A program made the translations under genes and the position numbers. The notes under the pieces were generated by a model. It did no database searches. It saw nothing but the letters and a program-made list of their open reading frames with translations, and was not told where the DNA came from. Below, piece after piece: positions 11,546 through 32,039 of a stretch of DNA of 35,810 nucleotides; within the stretch, counting starts at the first letter, position 1; every line of letters starts with the position of its first letter. Source of the stretch: Balneolaceae bacterium (GTDB lineage: Bacteria; Bacteroidota; Rhodothermia; Balneolales; Balneolaceae); contig RECI01000159.1 of the NCBI GenBank assembly GCA_007694095.1, positions 1-35,810 of the forward strand, read 5' to 3'.

Positions 11546-14206
11546 TTATTCAGGCTGATCATCATTTTTCTTTTCTGCCTCCAGTTCTTCGGGGGTTTTG
11601 AATATGGCATGCCCGGCATTTCCCCCTGAGATAATATAAGCGACGAGGTCCCGCAGTTCCTCTTCATTCAGCGGGTTGATGAGGCCGGGGGGCATCTGTG
11701 ACACTCCTACCGGTTCAATATTTTGCACTTCACTTCTTTGAACAATCGTGGGAGGCGCATCCGGATTACTGGAATAGATTTCCAGCATATCACCCCGTTC
11801 AAGTGCAAGTCCTGTTACCTGTACTCCAGAACGAAGCGTAACACGTGAACTGCTGTACTGGTCGGAAACAAGTATATTCGGATCGATTATTTTCTCCATC
11901 AATCCCCTTGTTGAAAACCTGCGGCTCACATTACTGAGATCGGGGCCAATATCCCCGCCATATATGTCGAAGCGGTGACAGCTGCCGCAGGCGGTCACAA
12001 AAAAGGCGTTTCTCCCACGTTCAAAATTCCGGTTGCTGCCAGCACTTAACTCACCGGAAAGCACCTGCATTGCATCGTTCAGCGTCCAGTTACGGCCGGG
12101 TCCTTCTGGCGGAACGAGGGCAAAGTCGAGCTGCCTTGTCAGGCGCACACCTGTGATGTCGGCTACAGCTTCCCGTTCTTCATCGGTCGAATTACGGAGC
12201 GCCTCCGAACGAAGGTCTTCAAGGAAGCCGGCATAACTCATCCCTCCAATCCGCTCGGCTGCTTCGTTGATAAACGTAAAGTAGTCCCTGCGTTGTTCAA
12301 TTGTCCATCCATCCCGCAGGTTTCGAAGCATAAAGGCATAACCAAGTTCAAGAATTGGGGGAGGGGATTCAATCATCTGTTGTATCACTCCCCCATATTC
12401 TTCGTTTCGTTCCAGCAGCTGAATACTCCAGTCGGGCCTCTGATCCGGCTTCTCGTTTTTCATCAATGTAAGGGCCTTATCAATAACCCGCGCGTCCCGG
12501 AGATATACCATCAGGCTAATAAGCTCCGTGTTTACCCTGTCATCATGGTGGGGGAGTAGTTGATTCAGCGCATCAGCAATCATTGTATGTTCGGCTTCAT
12601 CGGGTTCACCCAGCCTGATTATAACAAGGGATAACGCCCGGAGTTTGCCAAGCAGCTGGTCTGGCGTAAGTTCAGTGGCATTGAGTCCGAGTAATGACCG
12701 AATAGCCCGGGAACGATAGGTTGGTGAACCGTTCCGGGCAAGCGCCACGAGTGCCGCGATCCTGGCCTGCCCATTTTCTTCTGTGAATGCACGTTCAGCC
12801 CATTGGGCTGCCGGCTGGGATTCAACAGCAACACGGGCGGCATGGCGTATGATGCGGTCATCACTTCCGAGATAAGGCCATGCAGTATCAACGGCATCAG
12901 GGTGAACCTCTCCGTGAAAAGCTTCCAGTTTGTGGCGAAGCTCACGGGCCTGGCGTGCTTCGGGGATGTCGAACGGATCGGCCGGGGCAGTAGATTCGCT
13001 TCCACGGTATACCACACGGTAGAGCTGAGAATCCTGGTTTCGGCCACCGGTAATAAAATAGAGATGGCCGTCTTTGCCGATTGCAGCACTTGTGACCGGG
13101 AGCGGACTTCCGGATACAAATTCCTCGGCTTCAGCTTTATACGTGGGGCCGTGAGGAGTGAGATGAACGGCATAGATGGTGCCAAATGTCCAGTCGAAAG
13201 CGTACAAGGCACGCTGGTATGCTGCCGGGAATGCGGCACCTGTTCCAAATTCAAGTCCGGTTGGCGAACCGGGCCCGATGTTCAGCATTGGGGGCAGGCT
13301 GTCTTCATAATATTCAGGCCATTTTCCGCTGCCGCTGCGCCAGCCGTAATCACTGCCGCTTACAACATGAACCAGTCGGGTGGGACGATACCACGGCATA
13401 CCCATGTCCCACTCCATGTCGGAGTCGTAAGTAAATAGTTCACCGTGTTCATTTACAGCCGCATCAAACTGATTTCTGAAACCGATACTGATCATTTCCC
13501 ACTCAGTAGCCTCCGGATTAATCCGTGCGATGTATCCGCCTGGGGCAAGCACACCCCGTGCATGGCCGCGGGCATCCCACTCCCTTGGAAGCAGTAAGTC
13601 TTCATCCCAGTTGGTAATCCGGCTTTTTGTGAGGTTTGATGGGGGTGGAGTATGGTTTCCGGCAACATAGTAAAGCCCTTTGCCGTCGGGTGTTTTAAGT
13701 ATGGTGTGATTGCCGTGTTCACCGCCATACGCCGGACCACCAAGAAATTCGAGAAGATTGAGCTGCCCGTCACCATTCTCATCTCTCAGCCGGAACAGTC
13801 CGGTACCGTTTACGTTTGCGTAAAGGTGATCAAACACCCAGGCTGAGCCGTATGAACCGGAGAGTGGCATTACCAATTTTTCAATCTCTGCATCAGGGTC
13901 GTCGAGGCCTCCGCTTATGGTGATTTTATACAGGCCGTGATTCTGCTGGTCGGATGCATAGAGCGCCCCATCGGGACCCGATGTGAGGGAAACCCAGGAA
14001 CCCTGCCGATCGCGGGGCACATTATATATAAGCTGTACCTCGAAACCTTCTTTTACAAACGTGATGTTTGATTCGCTGCCATTTTCAGATTGCAGTTTTG
14101 TGTACGGGTTGTCGTTAAGCGGCGCACCGGCCGGAAAAATTATAGCAGAGAGGCTGAATGTGGCAGCCAGGGTTAAGAGCCTACTGGTAATAATATATTT
14201 GATCAT
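11546..14206 (-). CDS. Exported beta-propeller / HEAT-like / cytochrome c protein (putative dehydrogenase)
   Basis: 886 residues. A signal peptide (MIKYIITSRLLTLAATFSLS) leads into a six-bladed propeller of the glucose/sorbosone dehydrogenase type (about 45-400: GSWVSLTSGPDGALYASDQ, IGFRNQFDAAVNEHGELF, SDYGWRSGSGKWPEYYEDSL). A helical, HEAT-like middle follows (about 430-700). A C-terminal c-type heme domain (CGSCH near residue 740, IGPDLSNVSRRFSTRGLMEK, distal Met probably MPPGL) resembles the heme-binding domain family first noted in Planctomycetes and Verrucomicrobia. It probably oxidises a sugar-like compound in the periplasm and passes electrons to cytochrome c. The cofactor and substrate are inferred, not shown. 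Monocistronic. Confidence 0.8.
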   Translation of the reverse strand: MIKYIITSRLLTLAATFSLSAIIFPAGAPLNDNPYTKLQSENGSESNITFVKEGFEVQLIYNVPRDRQGSWVSLTSGPDGALYASDQQNHGLYKITISGGLDDPDAEIEKLVMPLSGSYGSAWVFDHLYANVNGTGLFRLRDENGDGQLNLLEFLGGPAYGGEHGNHTILKTPDGKGLYYVAGNHTPPPSNLTKSRITNWDEDLLLPREWDARGHARGVLAPGGYIARINPEATEWEMISIGFRNQFDAAVNEHGELFTYDSDMEWDMGMPWYRPTRLVHVVSGSDYGWRSGSGKWPEYYEDSLPPMLNIGPGSPTGLEFGTGAAFPAAYQRALYAFDWTFGTIYAVHLTPHGPTYKAEAEEFVSGSPLPVTSAAIGKDGHLYFITGGRNQDSQLYRVVYRGSESTAPADPFDIPEARQARELRHKLEAFHGEVHPDAVDTAWPYLGSDDRIIRHAARVAVESQPAAQWAERAFTEENGQARIAALVALARNGSPTYRSRAIRSLLGLNATELTPDQLLGKLRALSLVIIRLGEPDEAEHTMIADALNQLLPHHDDRVNTELISLMVYLRDARVIDKALTLMKNEKPDQRPDWSIQLLERNEEYGGVIQQMIESPPPILELGYAFMLRNLRDGWTIEQRRDYFTFINEAAERIGGMSYAGFLEDLRSEALRNSTDEEREAVADITGVRLTRQLDFALVPPEGPGRNWTLNDAMQVLSGELSAGSNRNFERGRNAFFVTACGSCHRFDIYGGDIGPDLSNVSRRFSTRGLMEKIIDPNILVSDQYSSSRVTLRSGVQVTGLALERGDMLEIYSSNPDAPPTIVQRSEVQNIEPVGVSQMPPGLINPLNEEELRDLVAYIISGGNAGHAIFKTPEELEAEKKNDDQPE

Positions 14207-19972: not shown

Positions 19973-21718
<1,746 letters not shown>

Positions 21719-22663
21719 TTAGTTACTTAAGGTTTTGATATACTCGATAATTGCATCAATCTGCCGGTCGTTGAGGGTTCCGGCATAGGAGGGCATCACG
21801 GGCTGATAGCCTGCTGTTATTTTCGCGTTGGGTTCGAGGATACTTTCGCGAAGATAATTTTCATCGGCTGTAATCACTTCACCATCCTGCATTTCTCTTT
21901 CCGCCATCCATAAGCCCTGGAATGTTGGGCCAACAAGGCGAGCGCCATCGCTGGAATGGCAGGTATTGCATGCATTTCTCACTACAAGCTGCTCTCCCAA
22001 TTCGGCAGGGGGGAGATCGTCATCGGCCGAACCGGCGGTTTCGAGCCATGTGATAAAATCTTCGGAAGAGTGTACATATGCCGTGGCAAGCATATTTGAG
22101 TGGGCAGTTCCACAATATTCGGTACAGAAAACTACTGACTCTCCAATTTCGGTGGCTTCAAACCAGAGAGATGTGTAGCGGTTGGGCAATACATCCATTT
22201 TTACGCGAAAATCGGGGATATAGAAAGAGTGGAGTACGTCGTCAGAACTCATAATGAGTTTCACGGGACGATTGACCGGTACGTGAAGTTCATTTACACT
22301 CACATGGCCTGTTTCATAGTGAAATTCCCATAACCAGCTTTTACCCACTACCCTGATTTCGTAAGCATCGGCCGGGGGAGTGGTCAGGTTCATGTAACCG
22401 TTCAGTCCCCATCCAAATACAATCATCACAAGGATGAGCGGAATTACCGACCATGTGATTTCGAGTTTGTTATTGTGAGTAATTACAGGCGTGACATCAT
22501 TTTCTGAGCGTCTTCGGTATTTCCACGCGAAGAAAATAATGGCAAAGGTGATACCTGCCAGCAGTATGATACTTGTAACATTCACAAAATGGAATAATGC
22601 GTCCGTTTGCTCAGCAAGCGTGCTTTTCTGAGGCGGGAGCATAAATTCACTAAATCTATTCAT
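21719..22663 (-). CDS. coxB: Cytochrome c oxidase subunit II with fused cytochrome c domain (caa3 type)
   Basis: 314 residues. Two membrane helices (about 28-48 and 70-90), a cupredoxin domain with the complete CuA site (His145, Cys180, Glu182, Cys184, His188, Met191 in FCTEYCGTAHSNM), then a C-terminal cytochrome c domain (about 223-314) with C232-N-T-C235-H236 and probable distal Met290. The fusion defines caa3 oxidases and gives electrons a covalently attached entry to CuA. The cytochrome domain is closely related to the second domain of ActE in the same operon. No obvious cleavable signal peptide is seen before helix 1. It abuts sco and coxA without spacers. Confidence 0.96.
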   Translation of the reverse strand: MNRFSEFMLPPQKSTLAEQTDALFHFVNVTSIILLAGITFAIIFFAWKYRRRSENDVTPVITHNNKLEITWSVIPLILVMIVFGWGLNGYMNLTTPPADAYEIRVVGKSWLWEFHYETGHVSVNELHVPVNRPVKLIMSSDDVLHSFYIPDFRVKMDVLPNRYTSLWFEATEIGESVVFCTEYCGTAHSNMLATAYVHSSEDFITWLETAGSADDDLPPAELGEQLVVRNACNTCHSSDGARLVGPTFQGLWMAEREMQDGEVITADENYLRESILEPNAKITAGYQPVMPSYAGTLNDRQIDAIIEYIKTLSN

Positions 22664-23494
22664 CTATTCTAATTCATATGTTGGTGGTTGTGAAGACCCT
22701 TTTTCACGTCTCCAAAAAACGCTCAGGAATATACCCAGAATTATTACTGTAGCCAAACCTCCGAGCTTCATAATATTCATGGCTACGGGTACATAACTTT
22801 GCGATGATGGGTCGTAGGTGAAACAATAAAAAAGCACCCTGTCGAGAGTATTTCCGATGGTTCCGTTGGCCGCTTCAAATAACGCGTTTCGCAGGTCAAA
22901 CTCACGGAAAGCGGCACCGTAGAGGTATCTTGTAATATCACCCTGCGGACTGATGAGCATGATGCTTGCAAGGTGCAGGTATTCGCCGGTTGGTTCATGG
23001 TATTTATACCGGAAACCCACGGCTTCTGTAAGTTTTTTGATCGACTCCTCAGGCCCGGTTAAAAAGTGCCAGCCTGCATCTGCACCGTCCCGGTTTAAAT
23101 CGCGCATGTACATCTCTTTCGATTCGGCCGCGAGCTCGTAAGTTTCACGCGGATCGATGCTGAATGAAATGATGGTATAGTCTTTTCCGGGACTCCATGC
23201 AAGTTCGTTCACCACCTTGAAAACTGCATCCAACACCAGACCGCAAAGAATAGGACAGTCGTAATAAAGCGGGTTCAACAGAACCGGTTTACCACTTTCC
23301 ATGAGATCACCCAGAAGAACCCGGGTTCCGTCGGAATTGATAAACTCAAGATCCAGCGGGATGGTATCCCCCAGCTTTTCGTCCACTCCGATATCCTGTA
23401 AGATGGCCGGAGTGGCCTGATTCAGCTGAGCTTGTGCAGTACTCAAAATGGAGAACACTGTAATCGTAAAAAAGATTATCAGTGTATGTCTCAT
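22664..23494 (-). CDS. sco1: SCO1/SenC-family copper chaperone
   Basis: 276 residues. Signal peptide (MRHTLIIFFTITVFSILSTAQAQ), a thioredoxin-like domain with C80-P-I-L-C84 and the matching His174 (GEYLHLASIML), the three Cu ligands of the SCO family, then a C-terminal membrane helix (about 245-265, LGGLATVIILGIFLSVFW). SCO proteins deliver copper to, or reduce the cysteines of, the CuA site of subunit II. Its position directly before coxB fits that role. Compared with Gram-negative SenC proteins, the C-terminal anchor is an extra. Confidence 0.92.
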   Translation of the reverse strand: MRHTLIIFFTITVFSILSTAQAQLNQATPAILQDIGVDEKLGDTIPLDLEFINSDGTRVLLGDLMESGKPVLLNPLYYDCPILCGLVLDAVFKVVNELAWSPGKDYTIISFSIDPRETYELAAESKEMYMRDLNRDGADAGWHFLTGPEESIKKLTEAVGFRYKYHEPTGEYLHLASIMLISPQGDITRYLYGAAFREFDLRNALFEAANGTIGNTLDRVLFYCFTYDPSSQSYVPVAMNIMKLGGLATVIILGIFLSVFWRREKGSSQPPTYELE

Positions 23495-23509
23495 ATTGGG
23501 TATATAAAT

Positions 23510-24010
23510 CTACTCGTTTGTTAAAATCGTAATCGCACTGTCAATCGGTATTCTGTAAATACCTTCATCGGGATCAACAACCCCGAATGATTCGAGACGC
23601 GCACGGTCTAATTGTTGAATTTCATCTATGTTGTAAAAGATGCTTTGCTGAAATCGTTCCTGGAGAGCACTTGTTCTGTTGTACTCGTGCATAAACATGA
23701 TACCAACAATAAACAGAACCACAGATACAGTACCAAATAATGACCAAAATGTGAGGCGCTTATAATTGAGTATGTCGAAGGTTGCGCCATATTCAACCGA
23801 TTTGATAAAATCCTCAGTTGCCTCCAAAGTAACATCTTCGTCATCAGTAACGCCAAAAGCTGAAGTTTCATGCATCCAGGTGCGAATTTCTTCTTCAGTA
23901 ACCCCGTGTTCTTCTGCAAGCTTTTTCAGAACTTCATCACCGGCGTTTTTTGCTTTTTCGGCAATTTGTGCCTTTTCTACATCTGAAAGTTTTTTCGGTT
24001 TGTCGCTCAT
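23510..24010 (-). CDS. Small single-helix membrane protein of the ACIII-oxidase operon, unknown function
   Basis: 166 residues. A charged helical N-terminal half (about 1-50: DVEKAQIAEKAKNAGDEVLK, HGVTEEEIRTWMHE) looks like a small helix-turn-helix-like or spectrin-like bundle. One membrane helix follows at about 91-110 (LFGTVSVVLFIVGIMFM). The C-terminal outside domain (about 111-166) ends GIYRIPIDSAITILTNE; small operon-linked proteins with a similar IPID/IPIE-type ending occur with ACIII and oxidase genes in related phyla. It may be an assembly factor or accessory subunit. That is inference from position, between actF (27 bases) and sco (15 bases). Confidence 0.75.
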   Translation of the reverse strand: MSDKPKKLSDVEKAQIAEKAKNAGDEVLKKLAEEHGVTEEEIRTWMHETSAFGVTDDEDVTLEATEDFIKSVEYGATFDILNYKRLTFWSLFGTVSVVLFIVGIMFMHEYNRTSALQERFQQSIFYNIDEIQQLDRARLESFGVVDPDEGIYRIPIDSAITILTNE

Positions 24011-24037
24011 ATCAAATCAGTTTACAAATAAATCAGG

Positions 24038-25237
24038 TTATTGATGATAATGTTTGCTCAGCGAAGCAGAAAGCTGCGGATCGTTTACCGGAACGATATT
24101 GTGCTTCTTCAGCCGCTGGAAGAAAAGCCCCATAAATATTCCGCCCAGCCCGATAAAGGTTGCAAAATCGAGCCAGCTTATGGCTACACCGCCATGGCTA
24201 AAGACCGGCATTACAATCCAGTGTAATTCTATGATGTGCATCACCAAAACGAGTACGGCGGTAAAGCCGAGAATCTTGTGATTATGCTTGAGGTCACGGT
24301 TCAGCAATACAATAAAAGGGATCAGGAATCTGCCGATAATCAGCATGTATGTGACGAACGCCCAGCTGCCCTCCATTCTGTGATAGAACCAGAGAGTTTC
24401 TTCCGGTATGTTTGCATAGTAAATCAGCAAAAACTGGCAGAAAGCGATATAGGCATAAAAAACGGTAAAACCGAAAAACCAGGCTCCAAGGTCGTAAATA
24501 TGGGCTTTACCGATAGTGTTTTTCAGAATCCCTTTTTTGTGGAACCAAAAAATCATGAGGATGAGTACCGGGAACAGTGCCTGGAAACTCATTGAGAAGA
24601 AGTATACACCAAACATGGTGGAGAACCAGTGCGCATCAAGCGACATAAGCCAGTCGAAGCTGGCAAAAGCTACGGTTAGCGAAAAAATTAAAATTCCGGG
24701 TGCGCTGAGTTTACGTAACAGGTTGGTAAGCCCCCAGTCGTTGGTTTCGTCCATTTCAACGGATAGTTTGTGCAGTCTGTAGCCAAGATAACCCCAGATT
24801 GCAAAATAGATGAACTGGCGGATTACAAAGAAGGGGACATTCAGATATGCAACCTTGCCAAGCATAATGGGATCGTTGGCAACATACTCTGTATTTGTCC
24901 AGGTATAAAGGCTGCTCATGCCCAGAAGTACAGGCACCAGGAACACCGACCAGATCCAGATATTGGATATAAACGATTCGGGAATTCTCATGATAACGGT
25001 GCCCCAGGATGATTTGGTAATATGGTGTATCATCACAAGGATAAGTGATGCAAGCGCAATACTCGTAAAAAATGAGAAACTGGTAAGATAAGAGTAGAAG
25101 AACTGTTCACTGTTCAGGAAAAATCCCACAAAACTTGCAATTAAACCGACCACACCAAAACCGTAGAATGTTTTTGCAACATCGAGATTTGTAGGGAATT
25201 GGAGGGAATCCGTTATTTTTGGACTTGTTGAAGCCAT
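24038..25237 (-). CDS. actF: Alternative complex III subunit ActF (quinol:cytochrome c oxidoreductase membrane subunit)
   Basis: 399 residues with about ten membrane helices, related to ActC and the NrfD/PsrC family but of the shorter ActF type. Recognisable segments are YLTSFSFFTSIALASLILVM, LGKVAYLNVPFFVIRQFIYF, ASFDWLMSLDAHWFSTMFGV and HRMEGSWAFVTYMLIIGRF; the SxDWLMSLDxHWFSTMxG motif is characteristic of this subunit. ActF is one of the two large integral-membrane parts of ACIII. The quinol site of the complex is attributed mainly to ActC, so direct quinone binding here is uncertain. Follows actE by 24 bases. Confidence 0.93.
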   Translation of the reverse strand: MASTSPKITDSLQFPTNLDVAKTFYGFGVVGLIASFVGFFLNSEQFFYSYLTSFSFFTSIALASLILVMIHHITKSSWGTVIMRIPESFISNIWIWSVFLVPVLLGMSSLYTWTNTEYVANDPIMLGKVAYLNVPFFVIRQFIYFAIWGYLGYRLHKLSVEMDETNDWGLTNLLRKLSAPGILIFSLTVAFASFDWLMSLDAHWFSTMFGVYFFSMSFQALFPVLILMIFWFHKKGILKNTIGKAHIYDLGAWFFGFTVFYAYIAFCQFLLIYYANIPEETLWFYHRMEGSWAFVTYMLIIGRFLIPFIVLLNRDLKHNHKILGFTAVLVLVMHIIELHWIVMPVFSHGGVAISWLDFATFIGLGGIFMGLFFQRLKKHNIVPVNDPQLSASLSKHYHQ

Positions 25238-25261
25238 GTAATTACCTTTTTTCGCTCAAAA

Positions 25262-26245
25262 TTATTCTTCTGATAATGATCTGATGAATTCAACCAATGA
25301 TTGAAGTTCACTTTCTGATAAATGTGCGTATGGAACCATCACATTGTCGTATCCCTGGACAATCAGAGCCCCCGGTTCAACAATGGATTCAATGATATAC
25401 TCTTCATCTGCAATGGCGCTGGTGCCATCGGTGAAATTTCTTTCCGATCCATAGAGCCCTGCAACGGTGGGGCCTACACCCGGGGTGCCGTCGAGTGAGT
25501 GACAGGCCTGACAGGCGTTGCGGACAAACAGTGCTTCGCCTCTTTCCGCACTAACTTCTTCACCTGCCCCGGCGGCACGTGCTGCGGCCAGCGCTTCAAG
25601 GCGTGCCTGTTCTTCTGTAAAGATCCGTCCCAGTTCAGCCAGGTCAATATCGTACCTCTCCATTTCGACGGCAGGAACATACTGGCTTCGCTGAAGCGCA
25701 CGGACATAGGCAACAATCGCCCAGCGGTCTTCAACAGGAATCTGCGTGGCATAAGCGGGCATGTTCCTCACACCGTTTGCGATAGCTGAATAGATTTCAC
25801 CATCCGGCATACCCCTGCTGATATCGGAGTGGAACGTAGGTGCCGGCACGTAGCCATAGCCCCCGGTCATGATAATACCCCTTCCGTCACCGGTTCCGCC
25901 GTGACACATCTGGCAAAAAATATCATAACGTTCCCGGCCGCGATTCAGAAATTCACGGGTTAATTCAAACGGGATTTCGGAAATGTAGTTTCCACCTTCA
26001 TCAAGGCCTTCAAACAAAGCAACATCGTGGCGGAGATTACCCCTCGCAATGGTCCCCTCCACCGGCATTCTCATAGCCATGCCATCTTCAAAAAACGGGT
26101 TTTCCTGCTGGGCATTAAAACGCTCCTGGAAATTCATGTTAAAATGATGCCGGATAGGCGGCTTGTCAGACAATTGTCCCCGGCAAGAAATAATCATCAC
26201 CGAGATCAATAAAAGTGCGCTGATATGTTTTAAGGCCAATTTCAT
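25262..26245 (-). CDS. actE: Alternative complex III subunit ActE, lipoprotein with two cytochrome c domains
   Basis: 327 residues. A lipoprotein signal with Cys21 in MIISC anchors it to the membrane. The first cytochrome c domain has C111-Q-M-C114-H115 and probable distal Met162 (NMPAYA). A helical, Ala/Glu-rich linker (about 195-232) leads to a second domain (about 236-325) with C245-Q-A-C248-H249 and probable Met303. ActE is usually described as a monoheme subunit (for example in Rhodothermus), so the second heme domain is notable. It aligns with the C-terminal domain of CoxB at roughly 45 identical residues of about 90 by eye. ActE sits at the electron exit of ACIII. Confidence 0.92.
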   Translation of the reverse strand: MKLALKHISALLLISVMIISCRGQLSDKPPIRHHFNMNFQERFNAQQENPFFEDGMAMRMPVEGTIARGNLRHDVALFEGLDEGGNYISEIPFELTREFLNRGRERYDIFCQMCHGGTGDGRGIIMTGGYGYVPAPTFHSDISRGMPDGEIYSAIANGVRNMPAYATQIPVEDRWAIVAYVRALQRSQYVPAVEMERYDIDLAELGRIFTEEQARLEALAAARAAGAGEEVSAERGEALFVRNACQACHSLDGTPGVGPTVAGLYGSERNFTDGTSAIADEEYIIESIVEPGALIVQGYDNVMVPYAHLSESELQSLVEFIRSLSEE

Positions 26246-26281: not shown

Positions 26282-26833
26282 TTACTCATCAAAAATCGAT
26301 TCGATATTTGTTGCTCCTGCATCGGCAAGAAGTTTCTGGACTTTTTCAGGTTCAAACTGGGGGTCTTCCGATTCGATGCATACAAAAAATCCGTCATCGG
26401 TTGCTTTTTTAAAATTCTCGGAATTAAAGAGCGGATGATTTAACCTTGGCAGCCCGTTCAGATAAAACATTCCGAAAACCGCCCCAAACGCGGCAAGAAG
26501 TACGGTTAATTCAAATAGTACCGGAACCCAAGCCGGGAAATTAAACAGGCTTTTCCCGCTGATATTCAGAGGGTAATCAATTACCATCATATAATAGATC
26601 ATGGCAAAACCGGCGGTTAATCCCAAGAACCCATGCCCTGCAACAATCCAGCCGAGTTTTGATTTATTCAGGTTCATCGCTCGGTCTATACCGTGTATCG
26701 GAAACGGGCTGAAAGTATCAAAGTGCCTGTATCCGCTGTCTTTCACAAGCCGCGCAGCATCCATTAATTCTTTTGGATTTTTGAATTCAGCAAGTATACC
26801 GTAAAGTGTTTTATCTGTGGTTGCTTTTTCCAT
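26282..26833 (-). CDS. actD: Alternative complex III subunit ActD (DUF3341)
   Basis: 183 residues. A soluble N-terminal domain (YGILAEFKNPKELMDAARLV, then HFDTFSPFPIHGIDRAM, about 11-55) precedes two membrane helices (about 63-86 and 101-126), and the C-terminal tail DDGFFVCIES is typical of DUF3341. It is a structural membrane subunit without cofactors. The gene starts 12 bases after actC and 36 bases precede actE. Confidence 0.93.
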   Translation of the reverse strand: MEKATTDKTLYGILAEFKNPKELMDAARLVKDSGYRHFDTFSPFPIHGIDRAMNLNKSKLGWIVAGHGFLGLTAGFAMIYYMMVIDYPLNISGKSLFNFPAWVPVLFELTVLLAAFGAVFGMFYLNGLPRLNHPLFNSENFKKATDDGFFVCIESEDPQFEPEKVQKLLADAGATNIESIFDE

Positions 26834-26845
26834 CGCTAACTAATT

Positions 26846-28273
26846 TTAAACAGATTTTTTATAAGGTTCCGGTATGACAACTTTCGGGGGAATAAACTCA
26901 CCTTTGTCATTGTAATTGTGTGGATCGGCCTGCGGCATTACACCTTTCAGCTCAGCAACTGCAACCATTGGAAGGAACCGCAGGAAGAGCAGGAAGAATG
27001 TGAAAAACAGGCCAAATGTACCAATATAGGTGGCAACGTCCCAGATTGTTGGGGAGTAATATCCCCACGATGATGGTAAATAGTCAGTAGAGAGTGATGA
27101 AACCACAATTACAAACCGTTCGAACCACATACCGATATTTACCACAATAGAAATCAAAAAGGTGAAAGCCACATGCCTTCGGAGTTTTTTGAACCAAAAG
27201 AATTGCGGTGACAATACGTTACACGTAATCATGATCCAGTACGCCCATGCGTACGGGCCGGTTGCGCGCAGGATGAAGATCGCCTTTTCATACTCCACAC
27301 CGCCATACCACGCTATGAAAAACTCCATCGCGTAGGCAAATCCAACCATCGAACCGGTCACAAGAATAATGATATTCATCTTTTCGATGTGGTCTACCGT
27401 CATGATGTCTTCAAGGCTGTAAATTTTCCGGCAAATGATCATAAGAGTAAGCACCATCGCGAACCCTGAAAATACCGCACCTGCTACGAAATAAGGCGGG
27501 AAAATGGTTGTATGCCATCCGGGGATAATCGATACGGCAAAGTCGAACGATACGATAGTATGAACGGAGAGCACAAGAGGGGTTGCCAGGCCGGCAAGGA
27601 TCATGTATGCTTTTTCATAATTCCACCAGTGGCGGTTGCTCCCTCTCCATCCAAGGGCAAATGTTCCGTAAATTACCTGGCCGACCTTGCTTTTTATCCG
27701 GTCACGAATTGTGGCTAAATCGGGCACCAGGCCAACATACCAAAAGAGCAGGGATACCGTAAAATAGGTTGAGATGGCAAAAACGTCCCAAAGCAGCGGG
27801 CTATTAAAATTGGGCCACATGGCCATGGAATTTGGAATTGGAAACATCCAGTACACTACCCAAATACGGCCTACGTGAATCGCCGGAAATATACCGGCAC
27901 ACATCACGGCAAAAATGGTCATGGCTTCCGCAAAACGGTTGATGGCTGTCCGCCAGCCCTGGCGGAACAGGAAAAGGATGGCGGAAATCAGTGTTCCCGC
28001 GTGGCCAATACCCACCCACCATACAAAGTTAATGATCGCCCATCCCCAGCCTACCGGCTGGTTCAATCCCCAGATTCCGGTTCCTTCCCAAAACAGCCAG
28101 GCTATGGATACCAGCAAAACCAGCAGCAAAATGTTGGAAACACCAAAAGCTATATACCATCCCATCGGAGTTGGCCGCATGTTGATGTCGGTAACCATTG
28201 CCGTAATATCCTTAAAGCTGTGGTTGCCTTTTACAAGAGCGGGTTCCGGAACGTATTCGTACGTTTTACTCAT
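26846..28273 (-). CDS. actC: Alternative complex III subunit ActC (NrfD/PsrC-like quinol-binding membrane subunit)
   Basis: 475 residues with about ten membrane helices, the NrfD/polysulfide-reductase family fold. Typical segments are [20 protein letters not shown] (about 88-107), [20 protein letters not shown] (about 113-132), [22 protein letters not shown] and [20 protein letters not shown]. In solved ACIII structures the quinol-binding site lies in ActC, near the periplasmic iron-sulfur subunit. The His and Asp/Glu residues in the early helices are candidates for quinol contact and proton transfer. Begins 36 bases after actB. Confidence 0.94.
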
Positions 28274-28309: not shown

Positions 28310-31300
28310 TCAGCTCAATTCAGGGTTTTTGTTTGTTAATCTTGCGAGATAGGATGTACGTGGCCGGACATTAATCTCCTCAAGCATCACATAATTTCTG
28401 TCGTTACTCTTATTCTTTGATACAATGCTGTTTGCATCGGTCAAATCACCAAAAGAAATTGCATTTGCAGGGCACGCCTGCTGGCAGGCTGTTTGAACAG
28501 TGCCATCTGCCGGTTTTTTGGAGCCGGTAGCAATTTTCGTCTTGATCTTGGCTTTGTTAACCCGCTGTACACAGTATGTACATTTTTCAATCACACCACG
28601 GAAACGAACGGTTACCTGTGGATTCATGGCCATCTGGATAATTTCAGGATCGTCTCCCGTGGTCAGATATTCTTTTGAGTAGTTAAAGAAATTAAATCTT
28701 CGCACTTTGAACGGACAGTTGTTGGCGCAGTAACGGGTACCGATACAACGGTTGTAAGTCATTTGGTTGATTCCGTCCTCACTGTGGGTGGTTGCAGCAA
28801 CAGGACAAACCTGCTCGCAAGGCGCAAGCTCACAATGCATGCAAGGTACCGGCTGATGATACGCCGTCGGATTATCAGGATCACCTTCATAATAGCGGTC
28901 GGTCCTTATCCAGTGCATGATTCTGCGGCGCCCAACCTCCCTCTTGCCGATAACCGGGATATTATTTTCGGCCTGGCATGCAATGGTACACACTCCGCAG
29001 CCAAAGCACGAGTTAAGATCAATGGTCATTCCCCATTGAGGTTGATGCTCGGGTCCATACATTTCATTAAACAGGGATACAGGGCCTCGGTCATCGCCGG
29101 CAGCAATGGCTTCCTTCATACCCGGCACTTTAAAACCATGGAAACTCTCGAATGAGGCGAAATCCGGTTTTTCTTTGTATTCGGAAAGCGTAGCGGTGCG
29201 GATCATATCGCGGCCTTCAAGTGAGTGATGATCCTGAACGCAGGCTATCTCATAGGTTGTGCCCGTTGATTCAACTGTGGCCTGCTGGTAAAACAAATTC
29301 TCTGATGTTCGCAGCGGATAGGTATCAACCCCGACCCCATCGGCCACCCGGCCTGCATTTTCGCGGCCATAACCTACGGTGAGGGTGATGGAATCGTCGG
29401 CATGACCCGGTTCGATCCATGCGGCTATTTCAATCGTTCTTTCGCCAGCGGTAATCCGTACTTTCGGGACCCTGTTATGGCGGAAGCTTCGTTCCGGGTT
29501 AATGCCGATTCGCCGGGCGGTAGCAGCGCTCATCAGTGCCACGTTATCCCAGGTAATCTTGGTCATGGGTTCCGGGAGTTCCTGCAGCCAGCCATTGTTG
29601 GCAAACCTTCCGTCGAATAATCTCACATCAGGTTTAATCGCGATTTCAATTCCATCGATTGGGCTGCGTGTTAGGGCAGGCTGGATGGATGATGAAAATC
29701 CTTCACTTAAATTGACCATTTCAGTGTCAAAACCACTTTCGGCATCTACACCATCATGCAGTATTTCTTCCCAGCGGCGGTCAAAATCAGAAGTAATCAC
29801 CCCATTCCAGGTTTCCTGTACCAGGTCATAACCGGCGCTTACTTCTCCTGTTAAAAATGTATGTAGAAATTCAATTTCACTGATTCCACCAAAAAGGGGC
29901 AGGATTTGGGGTTGAATAATAGATCTTTGGCCGGTAAAAGATAATCCGTCGCCCCAGGCCTCAAGAAAATGGGCGCGGTTTACATGCCAGGTACTCAATC
30001 GGGACGTTTCGTCAACATAATCGGAAAGATGTATCGATGTTTCAACATTACCGAGAGCAAGTGCCAGGTCGAGGTCTGCCGGGGCATTGTAAGCAAGATT
30101 ACCTCCAACCATAACAACCGTATCGAAAACACCGGCTTTTAATTCACTGACGGCATCGAGGAAAGCCTGGTTTTCATCCCGGTTTTCGCGGTATGGCAGT
30201 TCGTGGTATGTTACCGTATTGCCCGCATTCCCCAAAGCAAGATTTATGGCTGCGGCAGCGGCATGAGTTTCCGGGGCATGGTCAGCGCCAACAGTTACAA
30301 TCGAATTGCCTTGTGCATTTAAAAGTTCGCCGGCAATTTTTTCGATCCAGTCGTGATTTGAAAAATCGTTGTTTACACCGCTGAACGCATCAAGGCCGCT
30401 TATGGACTGAGACAGCCTGGCGGCAAGTGCAAACGTAAACGGTGCTATATGAGAAGACTTGAGGCGAAGCCTGTGGTCGGCATAAGAACCTGTATTTGTA
30501 AAGGCATTCTCAACAATATAAATGCGCGACATATCATCGCTTGTGGATTCCACTTTACGTTTGGACGTAATCTCCAGGGAATACTCAACACTGTTTTTCC
30601 CGGCCTGCGGGTTCATAAAATCATCATCAAGGGAGAGCACCACATCAGCACTGTCGAAATGGTTTACGGTGCGGAGGCGTTGCCCGAATGCGAGCTGAGC
30701 GCCTTCAAGTGCATTGTTCTCGGAAAACGGCTCATAGGTTACCCATTCTGCATTTGGGAAATTTTCAAGAATTTGCCGTTTGACTCTGTGATAGGTTGGA
30801 GATGAAGTGGCTTCATCTATAAAGAGGATATTTCTGCCGGTATTTGAAAAATGCCCGGCCGCAAATGCCGAAAAATCATCAATGGAGACTTTTTCGCCGT
30901 TATGTCTCGGGGATCGTGACCGGTCGGGGTCGTAAAGGCCAAGAATAGCGGCCTGATGGTAGATATTGGTTCTCCCGCCGCTTGCCGGGTGATCAGGGTT
31001 CCCTTCGATTTTTGATGGGCGTCCCTCATTATTTGTGATCAATAATCCGGTTATAGAATCCTGGAATGGCATACCTGTTGCGTAAAACAGGGGTTCTCCG
31101 AGTACAAGGTCTTCCGGCTGACGTGAATAGGGTAATATTTTTTGAATCGGTTTGCGGCATGATGCAAACCCGGCAAGGGCGATGGAAGCACCCATTACCC
31201 GTAAAAAACTGCGTCGGGAAACCTGATCGGTCAGTTCGGTTGCATTTTCAGGGAATTCGCGTTCCGCAAATTTTTTGTACTCTTCGTTTTGAGCGAGTTC

Positions 31301-31345
31301 GTTTAAGCTTTTCCAGTAAGTTGTTTGATTCGGCTGATCACTCAT
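28310..31345 (-). CDS. actB: Alternative complex III subunit ActB (molybdopterin-oxidoreductase-like plus iron-sulfur domain)
   Basis: 1011 residues, a fusion. A twin-arginine motif (R44-R45, RRSFLRVMG) is followed by a hydrophobic stretch ending ALAGFASC, so Cys63 could be lipidated: Tat export plus lipoprotein anchoring. Residues about 70-740 resemble molybdopterin oxidoreductases, but ActB is known to lack the cofactor. Residues about 760-1000 form a ferredoxin-like domain with four Cys groups: C780, C783, C786, C790; C835, C838, C843, C847; C867, C873, C877; C922, C925, C954, C958. The three-Cys group fits the 3Fe-4S site. It is the large periplasmic scaffold of the complex. Confidence 0.95.
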   Translation of the reverse strand: MSDQPNQTTYWKSLNELAQNEEYKKFAEREFPENATELTDQVSRRSFLRVMGASIALAGFASCRKPIQKILPYSRQPEDLVLGEPLFYATGMPFQDSITGLLITNNEGRPSKIEGNPDHPASGGRTNIYHQAAILGLYDPDRSRSPRHNGEKVSIDDFSAFAAGHFSNTGRNILFIDEATSSPTYHRVKRQILENFPNAEWVTYEPFSENNALEGAQLAFGQRLRTVNHFDSADVVLSLDDDFMNPQAGKNSVEYSLEITSKRKVESTSDDMSRIYIVENAFTNTGSYADHRLRLKSSHIAPFTFALAARLSQSISGLDAFSGVNNDFSNHDWIEKIAGELLNAQGNSIVTVGADHAPETHAAAAAINLALGNAGNTVTYHELPYRENRDENQAFLDAVSELKAGVFDTVVMVGGNLAYNAPADLDLALALGNVETSIHLSDYVDETSRLSTWHVNRAHFLEAWGDGLSFTGQRSIIQPQILPLFGGISEIEFLHTFLTGEVSAGYDLVQETWNGVITSDFDRRWEEILHDGVDAESGFDTEMVNLSEGFSSSIQPALTRSPIDGIEIAIKPDVRLFDGRFANNGWLQELPEPMTKITWDNVALMSAATARRIGINPERSFRHNRVPKVRITAGERTIEIAAWIEPGHADDSITLTVGYGRENAGRVADGVGVDTYPLRTSENLFYQQATVESTGTTYEIACVQDHHSLEGRDMIRTATLSEYKEKPDFASFESFHGFKVPGMKEAIAAGDDRGPVSLFNEMYGPEHQPQWGMTIDLNSCFGCGVCTIACQAENNIPVIGKREVGRRRIMHWIRTDRYYEGDPDNPTAYHQPVPCMHCELAPCEQVCPVAATTHSEDGINQMTYNRCIGTRYCANNCPFKVRRFNFFNYSKEYLTTGDDPEIIQMAMNPQVTVRFRGVIEKCTYCVQRVNKAKIKTKIATGSKKPADGTVQTACQQACPANAISFGDLTDANSIVSKNKSNDRNYVMLEEINVRPRTSYLARLTNKNPELS

Positions 31346-31394: not shown

Positions 31395-32039
31395 TCAGAA
31401 ATGACAGCTCTGGCAATACGTAGGCGCGTTAATATTATGCTTCGCAACAAGTTCCCGCCCGAGTTCAAGCTGATTTTCCGCAACATACCCCATAGTGGTA
31501 ATTTCTGATACCGGCCTTACGTGTTTTTCCGGTTCCCTGTGGCAATCAAGACACCAGCCCATACTGAGAGGCATTGCCTGGTAAACAATATCCATTCTGT
31601 CCACACGTCCATGGCACGATTCACAGCCAACTCCAACATTCACGTGAGCCGCATGGTTGAAATATGCATAATCGGGCAGCATGTGTACCTTGATCCACTC
31701 TATGGGTTTGCCTGTTTCCCAGCTTTCGCGTACCGGGGCAAGTTTTTCACTATCTGTGAGGATTTGCCCGTGACAGTTCATACAGGTTTGTGTTGCCGGT
31801 ATATTGGCGTATTTGGATTCTGTAACCTGGGTATGGCAATACTGGCAATCCATGCCCAGTTGGCCAACGTGTACCTTGTGGCTGAACGGAACAGGCTGCT
31901 CCGGGGCGTAGCCAACATCTAAAAATTCGGGAGAGAAAAAATACCAGACTACAAAAACAAGTGCGTTAAGAACAATGATTGAACCAAATAGAATTCTGCG
32001 TGGTGCTTCATTTGTCCACTTAGGAAAAATCTGAGCCAT
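31395..32039 (-). CDS. actA: Alternative complex III subunit ActA (pentaheme cytochrome c)
   Basis: 214 residues. One N-terminal membrane helix (about 15-35) anchors a periplasmic domain with five CXXCH motifs: C65-C68-H69, C86-C89-H90, C139-C142-H143, C163-C166-H167 and C209-C212-H213; the last lies one residue from the C-terminus. Other His residues (SHKVHVGQ, FNHAAHVNVG, EKHVRPV) supply distal ligands. ActA relays electrons from ActB toward ActE. It is the first gene of the operon; 49 bases separate it from actB. I found no convincing promoter box in the 439-base upstream gap on this strand. Confidence 0.95.
   Translation of the reverse strand: MAQIFPKWTNEAPRRILFGSIIVLNALVFVVWYFFSPEFLDVGYAPEQPVPFSHKVHVGQLGMDCQYCHTQVTESKYANIPATQTCMNCHGQILTDSEKLAPVRESWETGKPIEWIKVHMLPDYAYFNHAAHVNVGVGCESCHGRVDRMDIVYQAMPLSMGWCLDCHREPEKHVRPVSEITTMGYVAENQLELGRELVAKHNINAPTYCQSCHF

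Follow-up and report, generated by a model that had tools for sequence, protein, structure and literature searches.

Organization of the act-cox Locus

The window analysed here, i.e., the whole 35,810-nt stretch, carries the act and cox genes as one contiguous series on the minus strand according to the ORF list, in the order ActA, ActB, ActC, ActD, ActE, ActF, a 166-aa ORF, SCO1, CoxB, CoxA, and further oxidase genes. ActA (31395..32039, −) is a pentaheme cytochrome of 214 aa with five CXXCH motifs. ActB, the large iron-sulfur subunit (28310..31345, −), was assigned from its ORF, sequence, and operon order, and the membrane subunits ActC (26846..28273, −) and ActF (24038..25237, −) from ORF and order; ActD (26282..26833, −) is recognized by the Pfam ActD family (1.6e-65). 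On the oxidase side, we found a SCO1/SenC protein for CuA assembly (22664..23494, −; PF02630, 4e-8), CoxB, and the caa3 subunit I CoxA (19973..21718, −; PF00115, 512.9 bits).

The actE gene, placed between actD and actF by ORF order and Pfam, is an ORF of 327 aa (25262..26245, −) for the cytochrome c lipoprotein subunit of alternative complex III (ACIII), whose lipobox Cys21 is invariant in 51 relatives. Three parts can be distinguished in it: domain 1, the canonical ActE cytochrome c (about residues 95-190; 25676..25963, −), with a CXXCH motif at 111 and a PF13442 match at 101-181; an Ala/Glu-rich linker (residues 191-232; 25550..25675, −) with a predicted helix at 202-225; and domain 2, a CoxB-type cytochrome c (residues 233-325; 25271..25549, −) with a second CXXCH motif at 245. 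Having two such motifs, this protein does not fit the label “monoheme ActE” and is a diheme variant. CoxB, subunit II of the caa3 oxidase (21719..22663, −; 314 aa; TIGR02866 at 186.6 bits, PF00116, PF00034), is made of a CuA domain and a C-terminal cytochrome c domain homologous to ActE domain 2 (residues 220-313; 21725..22006, −; CXXCH at 232, PF00034).

Two further ORFs of the window deserve a mention. The 166-aa ORF between ActF and SCO (window 23510-24010) has one apparent membrane segment and, in Pfam, a sub-threshold HTH match alone; it may represent an ActG-like subunit. An 886-aa protein encoded downstream of the oxidase genes (window 11546-14206) ends in a CXXCH-containing domain (CGSCHRFD...) and is similar to large dehydrogenase-like proteins that bear a heme domain at the C terminus.

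Identity of the Second ActE Domain

The original prediction was that ActE and CoxB carry closely related cytochrome c domains, with about 45 identities in 90 positions counted by eye. Both ORFs are where the prediction had them, and a local alignment of ActE 233-325 with CoxB 220-313 bears the estimate out, with 47 identities over 93 aligned positions and one gap; the four motifs that had been cited (VRNAC..CHS.DG, VGPT..GL, ESI.EP.A, and GY..VM) all lie inside it. The alignment score is 225, about 44 SD above that of shuffled sequences (mean 26.3, sd 4.5, maximum 50), and the relatedness of the two domains is, thus, confirmed. CoxB is also the best match to domain 2 in this genome (2e-22), the next cytochrome c coming at about E=1e-5. 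ActE domains 1 and 2, when compared with each other, score 40, which is within the shuffle range; an internal duplication of domain 1 is, therefore, ruled out, and domain 2 has to come from elsewhere.

Searches against solved structures with phmmer gave the same division of the protein. Residues 11-195 of ActE are matched by the ActE of Rhodothermus marinus at E=1e-68 (PDB 6F0K chain E). For residues 233-323, the match is 1W2L, the c domain carried by subunit II of the caa3 oxidase in R. marinus, at E=1e-27 when the entire protein is the query and 5e-29 when only domain 2 is; the family that comes next is far weaker for domain 2 (58 vs. 103 bits). In an AlphaFold model of ActE based on 51 proteins from the window and the loci, both domains are predicted with confidence and the helix at 202-225 connects them (mean pLDDT 84); the pTM is 0.47, so that the mutual placement of the two domains is not fixed. 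Foldseek assigned the first part of this model to 6F0K chain E and the second to 1W2L, with a TM-score of 0.90, an rmsd of 1.2 Å, and 54% identity. Cytochrome_CBB3 and Cytochrom_C were the only families found in ActE, and there is no fusion to a CuA (COX2) domain. Judging by sequence and predicted fold, we identify ActE domain 2 as the cytochrome c domain of a caa3-oxidase subunit II (CoxB).

Distribution in Balneolaceae and Their Relatives

The family name was taken from named records, in which Balneolaceae include Rhodohalobacter, Balneola, Gracilimonas, and Aliifodinibius. Among 198 genomes of the phylum, a full-length match to the diheme ActE is confined to Balneolaceae; in the other families of this set, the match covers domain 1 alone, and a domain 2 query finds their CoxB. 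Reading the loci themselves led to the same picture: ActE has two CXXCH motifs and CoxB one in all 18 Balneolaceae loci read (window included), and ActE has a single motif in the four sister-family loci, as well as in the loci from elsewhere in the class and phylum. In a family-wide search, ActE was present in 86 of 92 Balneolaceae genomes and was a full-length diheme protein in all 86; it was not found in the other 6, five of which gave no match at all.

Monoheme ActE is found in other Balneolales, Rhodothermales, and many phyla (named records), as well as in the other Rhodothermia and Bacteroidota sampled, and diheme ActE is absent from every sampled sister Balneolales, Rhodothermia, and other Bacteroidota genome. 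The expectation that ActE is usually monoheme, thus, holds outside Balneolaceae, including for all sampled relatives in the phylum; a diheme ActE is the norm within the family and not across ACIII at large. Monoheme ActE together with a heme-bearing CoxB is thus the ancestral state here, from which it follows that the domain was transferred from CoxB to ActE. Longer ActE proteins (380-412 aa) of other Bacteroidota have one heme, near the C-terminal end, and were dismissed as another heme extension; their organization is consistent with ActD-ActE fusions.

A Single and Old Graft in Balneolaceae

The domain 2 sequences of Balneolaceae group in a clade of their own (99/97 in the outgroup tree and 94/70 in another, a third domain tree not resolving it), which sits inside a mainly Rhodothermia group of CoxB cytochrome c domains (89/89, outgroup tree). 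One has to keep in mind that the outgroup tree is weak at its base, where the outgroup rows are not one clade, and that the domain alignments have fewer than 100 columns; the exact donor is not resolved beyond Rhodothermia CoxB c-domains. As the clade covers the entire family, the graft must be older than the family, and its age also follows from the comparison of ActE domain 2 with CoxB at the DNA level, where no long match remains, only a short local alignment. These sequence comparisons, taken together, support a single graft from CoxB to ActE before Balneolaceae radiated.

The original prediction had envisaged a duplication “from, or into, CoxB within one operon”. The CoxB family as the source has stood, and the distribution gives the direction, from CoxB to ActE; a local duplication within this operon has not, given the family-wide clade. 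A recent in-operon duplication or gene conversion is likewise ruled out, since the domain 2 sequences of the family cluster apart from CoxB and there is no long DNA match.

Proteins of about 930-960 aa that end in a CoxB-type cytochrome c domain were also seen in some Balneolaceae and in one other genome of the class (L151, L152, L153, L154, L155, and L156); they make up a single clade close to ActE domain 2, and the one that was scanned is a DUF6797 protein.

Probable Grafts Outside the Family

Diheme ActE with a CoxB-type domain 2 also occurs in Myxococcota (L119, L126, L129, and L202-L213), i.e., in 15 of the 146 genomes sampled from this phylum. As in Balneolaceae, the protein is made of ActE domain 1 and a CoxB-type domain 2, but its linker is shorter and has no conserved helix-like Ala/Glu-rich stretch, and its domain 2 belongs to a separate clade. 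Indeed, the Myxococcota and Balneolaceae domain 2 clades are apart in the outgroup tree (100/99 and 99/97), and Myxococcota domain 2 groups with some Myxococcota CoxB domains (96/97, domain tree). Constraining all ActE second domains to one clade costs 34 log-likelihood units with an AU p of 0.074, so that one origin for all diheme ActE is disfavoured without being formally rejected; at least two independent grafts, in Balneolaceae and in Myxococcota, are suggested by the trees as the likely, though not proven, history. A third one has possibly occurred in a planctomycete MAG, where ActD, ActE, and a CoxB-type c domain are fused in one 504-aa protein (L118:6401-7912) and CoxB keeps its c domain too; among 149 genomes of that phylum, diheme ActE was found in this starting genome only.

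The Myxococcota loci differ from those of Balneolaceae on the oxidase side as well, with a CoxB devoid of the c domain and an extra diheme cytochrome beside it. CoxB forms without CXXCH were found in all 15 diheme genomes, one of which has an additional heme-bearing CoxB, and all 11 monoheme Myxococcota genomes checked (full single CoxB-c) have the CoxB c domain; the association gives a Fisher p of 1.3e-7, a value that ignores the kinship among the diheme genomes. This could suggest that the domain was relocated out of CoxB by loss. Such a relocation is not supported, as the c-less CoxB is a separate CoxB lineage, not the same CoxB stripped of its domain, and has its own diheme cytochrome, the gene of which adjoins it in nearly all cases. 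A fair statement is that both the oxidase and the heme chain differ in diheme Myxococcota, with domain 2 retained on ActE.

Another Myxococcota genome has what looks like the mirror image of the Balneolaceae arrangement, i.e., a 517-aa CoxB with two tandem C-terminal cytochrome c domains (L216:8564-10114; hemes at 282 and 437) alongside a monoheme ActE.

A Putative Tethered Relay from ACIII to the caa3 Oxidase

We consider it reasonably probable that the diheme ActE is a tethered relay from ACIII to caa3 that arose by fusion of a CoxB domain in the Balneolaceae stem. In this scenario, the stem lineage would have joined a copy of the CoxB c-domain to the C terminus of ActE via a helical spacer of near-fixed length, and electrons would pass from quinol to the ActB/ActA cofactors, ActE domain 1, ActE domain 2, the CoxB cytochrome c, and CuA. 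Domain 2 would do the work of a diffusing cytochrome c while staying attached to ACIII, and would couple the output of this complex to the caa3 oxidase of the same operon. For this organism, we infer heme occupancy, the order of electron transfer, and the existence of the supercomplex.

In R. marinus, the single heme of ActE adjoins the CoxB c domain and is reported to be the direct donor to caa3 (PMC5928083), and F. johnsoniae retains its aa3 activity when ActE is deleted (PMC8552683), so that ActE need not be on the main path everywhere. The ActA of the Balneolaceae window has no extra N-terminal c domain, and a PF00033 search found no cytochrome b of a bc1 complex in the genome, leaving ACIII as the only evident quinol:cytochrome c route. 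It is on these grounds that we read domain 2 as an extra tethered carrier, most likely a heme extending the ActE-to-CoxB relay known for R. marinus. A direct heme-to-heme path from ACIII to caa3 had been put forward in the original prediction; such a path is indeed the one reported for R. marinus (PMC5928083), but with a monoheme ActE, and a second heme would, thus, lengthen it, not create it. The absence of a soluble cytochrome c is not supported, as at least two small cytochromes c whose N-termini are lipobox-like are encoded in this genome, and these putatively membrane-anchored proteins could carry electrons instead of domain 2. Nothing supports the proposed domain-swapped contact between ActE and CoxB either: in Balneolaceae, domain 2 has a mean net charge of −11.2 and CoxB-c one of −9.5, and this strong acidity of both speaks mildly against a tight face-to-face pairing and against direct docking, a reading that a halophile proteome would confound.

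Domain 2 might also donate straight to CuA or compete with CoxB-c, in which case the two would be interchangeable entries or ACIII would serve oxidases with a c-less CoxB. We hold this to be rather unlikely. The heme-less CoxB forms of the 15 diheme Myxococcota genomes, set against the 11 monoheme relatives with a CoxB c domain, go in its direction, as does a second-oxidase CuA subunit without a c domain encoded in about one third of Balneolaceae, this genome included; however, the c-less Myxococcota CoxB is of a different lineage, with a separate diheme cytochrome beside it in nearly all operons, and most Balneolaceae are without the second oxidase, with domain 2 kept in all. A partnership of domain 2 with the second oxidase is weakened accordingly, and that enzyme cannot be the general reason for the domain. 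In this genome, it is a heme-copper oxidase of ba3-like layout (L229:999-3135), with a CuA subunit of 149 aa that has no c domain and a subunit I of 561 aa.

The occurrence of the same domain type on DUF6797 proteins of about 930 aa in some Balneolaceae indicates that the module is employed in other contexts, and domain 2 could deliver electrons to acceptors that have nothing to do with caa3, either soluble or outer ones (peroxidase, denitrification enzymes, other oxidases). This appears improbable to us, since domain 2 is universal in Balneolaceae, where it is paired with CoxB-c in the same gene series, since its identity is to the oxidase domain, and since ActE is at the oxidase side of R. 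marinus ACIII (PMC5928083). Between the two heme motifs of Balneolaceae ActE lie 134-137 residues, a near-constant linker length that contrasts with a drifting linker sequence (38% identity) and would fit a spacer of defined reach; that domain 2 is mainly a structural docking arm, joining ACIII and caa3 through CoxB-c-like contacts with an incidental heme, is nevertheless very improbable, its heme motif and the position of the distal (axial) Met being kept in the sampled sequences.

Significance and Relation to Known Systems

The role of ActE in the hand-over from ACIII to oxidases is disputed, being that of a direct donor in R. marinus and dispensable in F. johnsoniae. In this context, a natural ActE fused to the oxidase entry domain is evolutionary evidence for ActE and CoxB-c working side by side, and the repeated graft suggests an exchange of electron-entry domains between respiratory complexes; the Balneolaceae include cultured genera, such as Rhodohalobacter and Gracilimonas. 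It is tempting, if doubtful, to generalize that ACIII has acquired a cytochrome c module, sometimes the entry domain of the oxidase itself, on repeated and independent occasions (on ActE in Balneolaceae, Myxococcota, and perhaps a planctomycete; as a different domain on Flavobacterium-type ActA), and that the heme layout would then mark obligate ACIII-oxidase units without soluble cytochrome c.

A varying heme number in ActE has been noted before: ActE is duplicated in Caldithrix (PMC5317091), and MBNT15 has an ActE-like protein with four hemes (PMC9386147). The parts are already known, and their combination appears to be undescribed: we found no description of a Balneolaceae ACIII or of the ActE-CoxB domain combination in the open-access literature, an earlier mention elsewhere being possible.

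In actinobacterial III2IV2 supercomplexes, complex III likewise contributes two class I c domains; they belong to QcrC, a diheme cytochrome cc that replaces soluble cytochrome c (PMC8361435). QcrC, however, is part of a bc1-type complex; the genome studied here has no detected cytochrome b, and domain 2 matches CoxB-c, not QcrC. Flavobacterium-type ActA resembles the diheme ActE, as read here, in that it provides ACIII with an additional tethered c domain as a bridge to the oxidase (PMC5928083, PMC8552683), but this domain is at the N terminus of ActA (sixth heme), has only about 20-24 bits to the CoxB domain, and goes with a heme-less CoxB; in F. johnsoniae, it apparently takes the place of the CoxB c-domain (PMC5928083). 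N-terminal class I cytochrome c domains were seen on the ActA of Flavobacterium-type Bacteroidota (L222, L223, L224, and L225, with two domains in L222), and a heme-less CoxB in the loci of three of these Flavobacterium-type genomes (L063, L067, and L068).

The closest system is that of R. marinus, the ActE of which (6F0K chain E) has an orthologous domain 1 (E=1e-68), the same operon order, and a lipobox, but is monoheme, with about 209 aa and no CoxB-type domain. The c domain of its caa3 subunit II (1W2L) shares the fold of ActE domain 2 and about 54% identity with it; in R. marinus, this domain is fused to the CuA of the oxidase, whereas Balneolaceae domain 2 is fused to ActE, besides the copy in CoxB.
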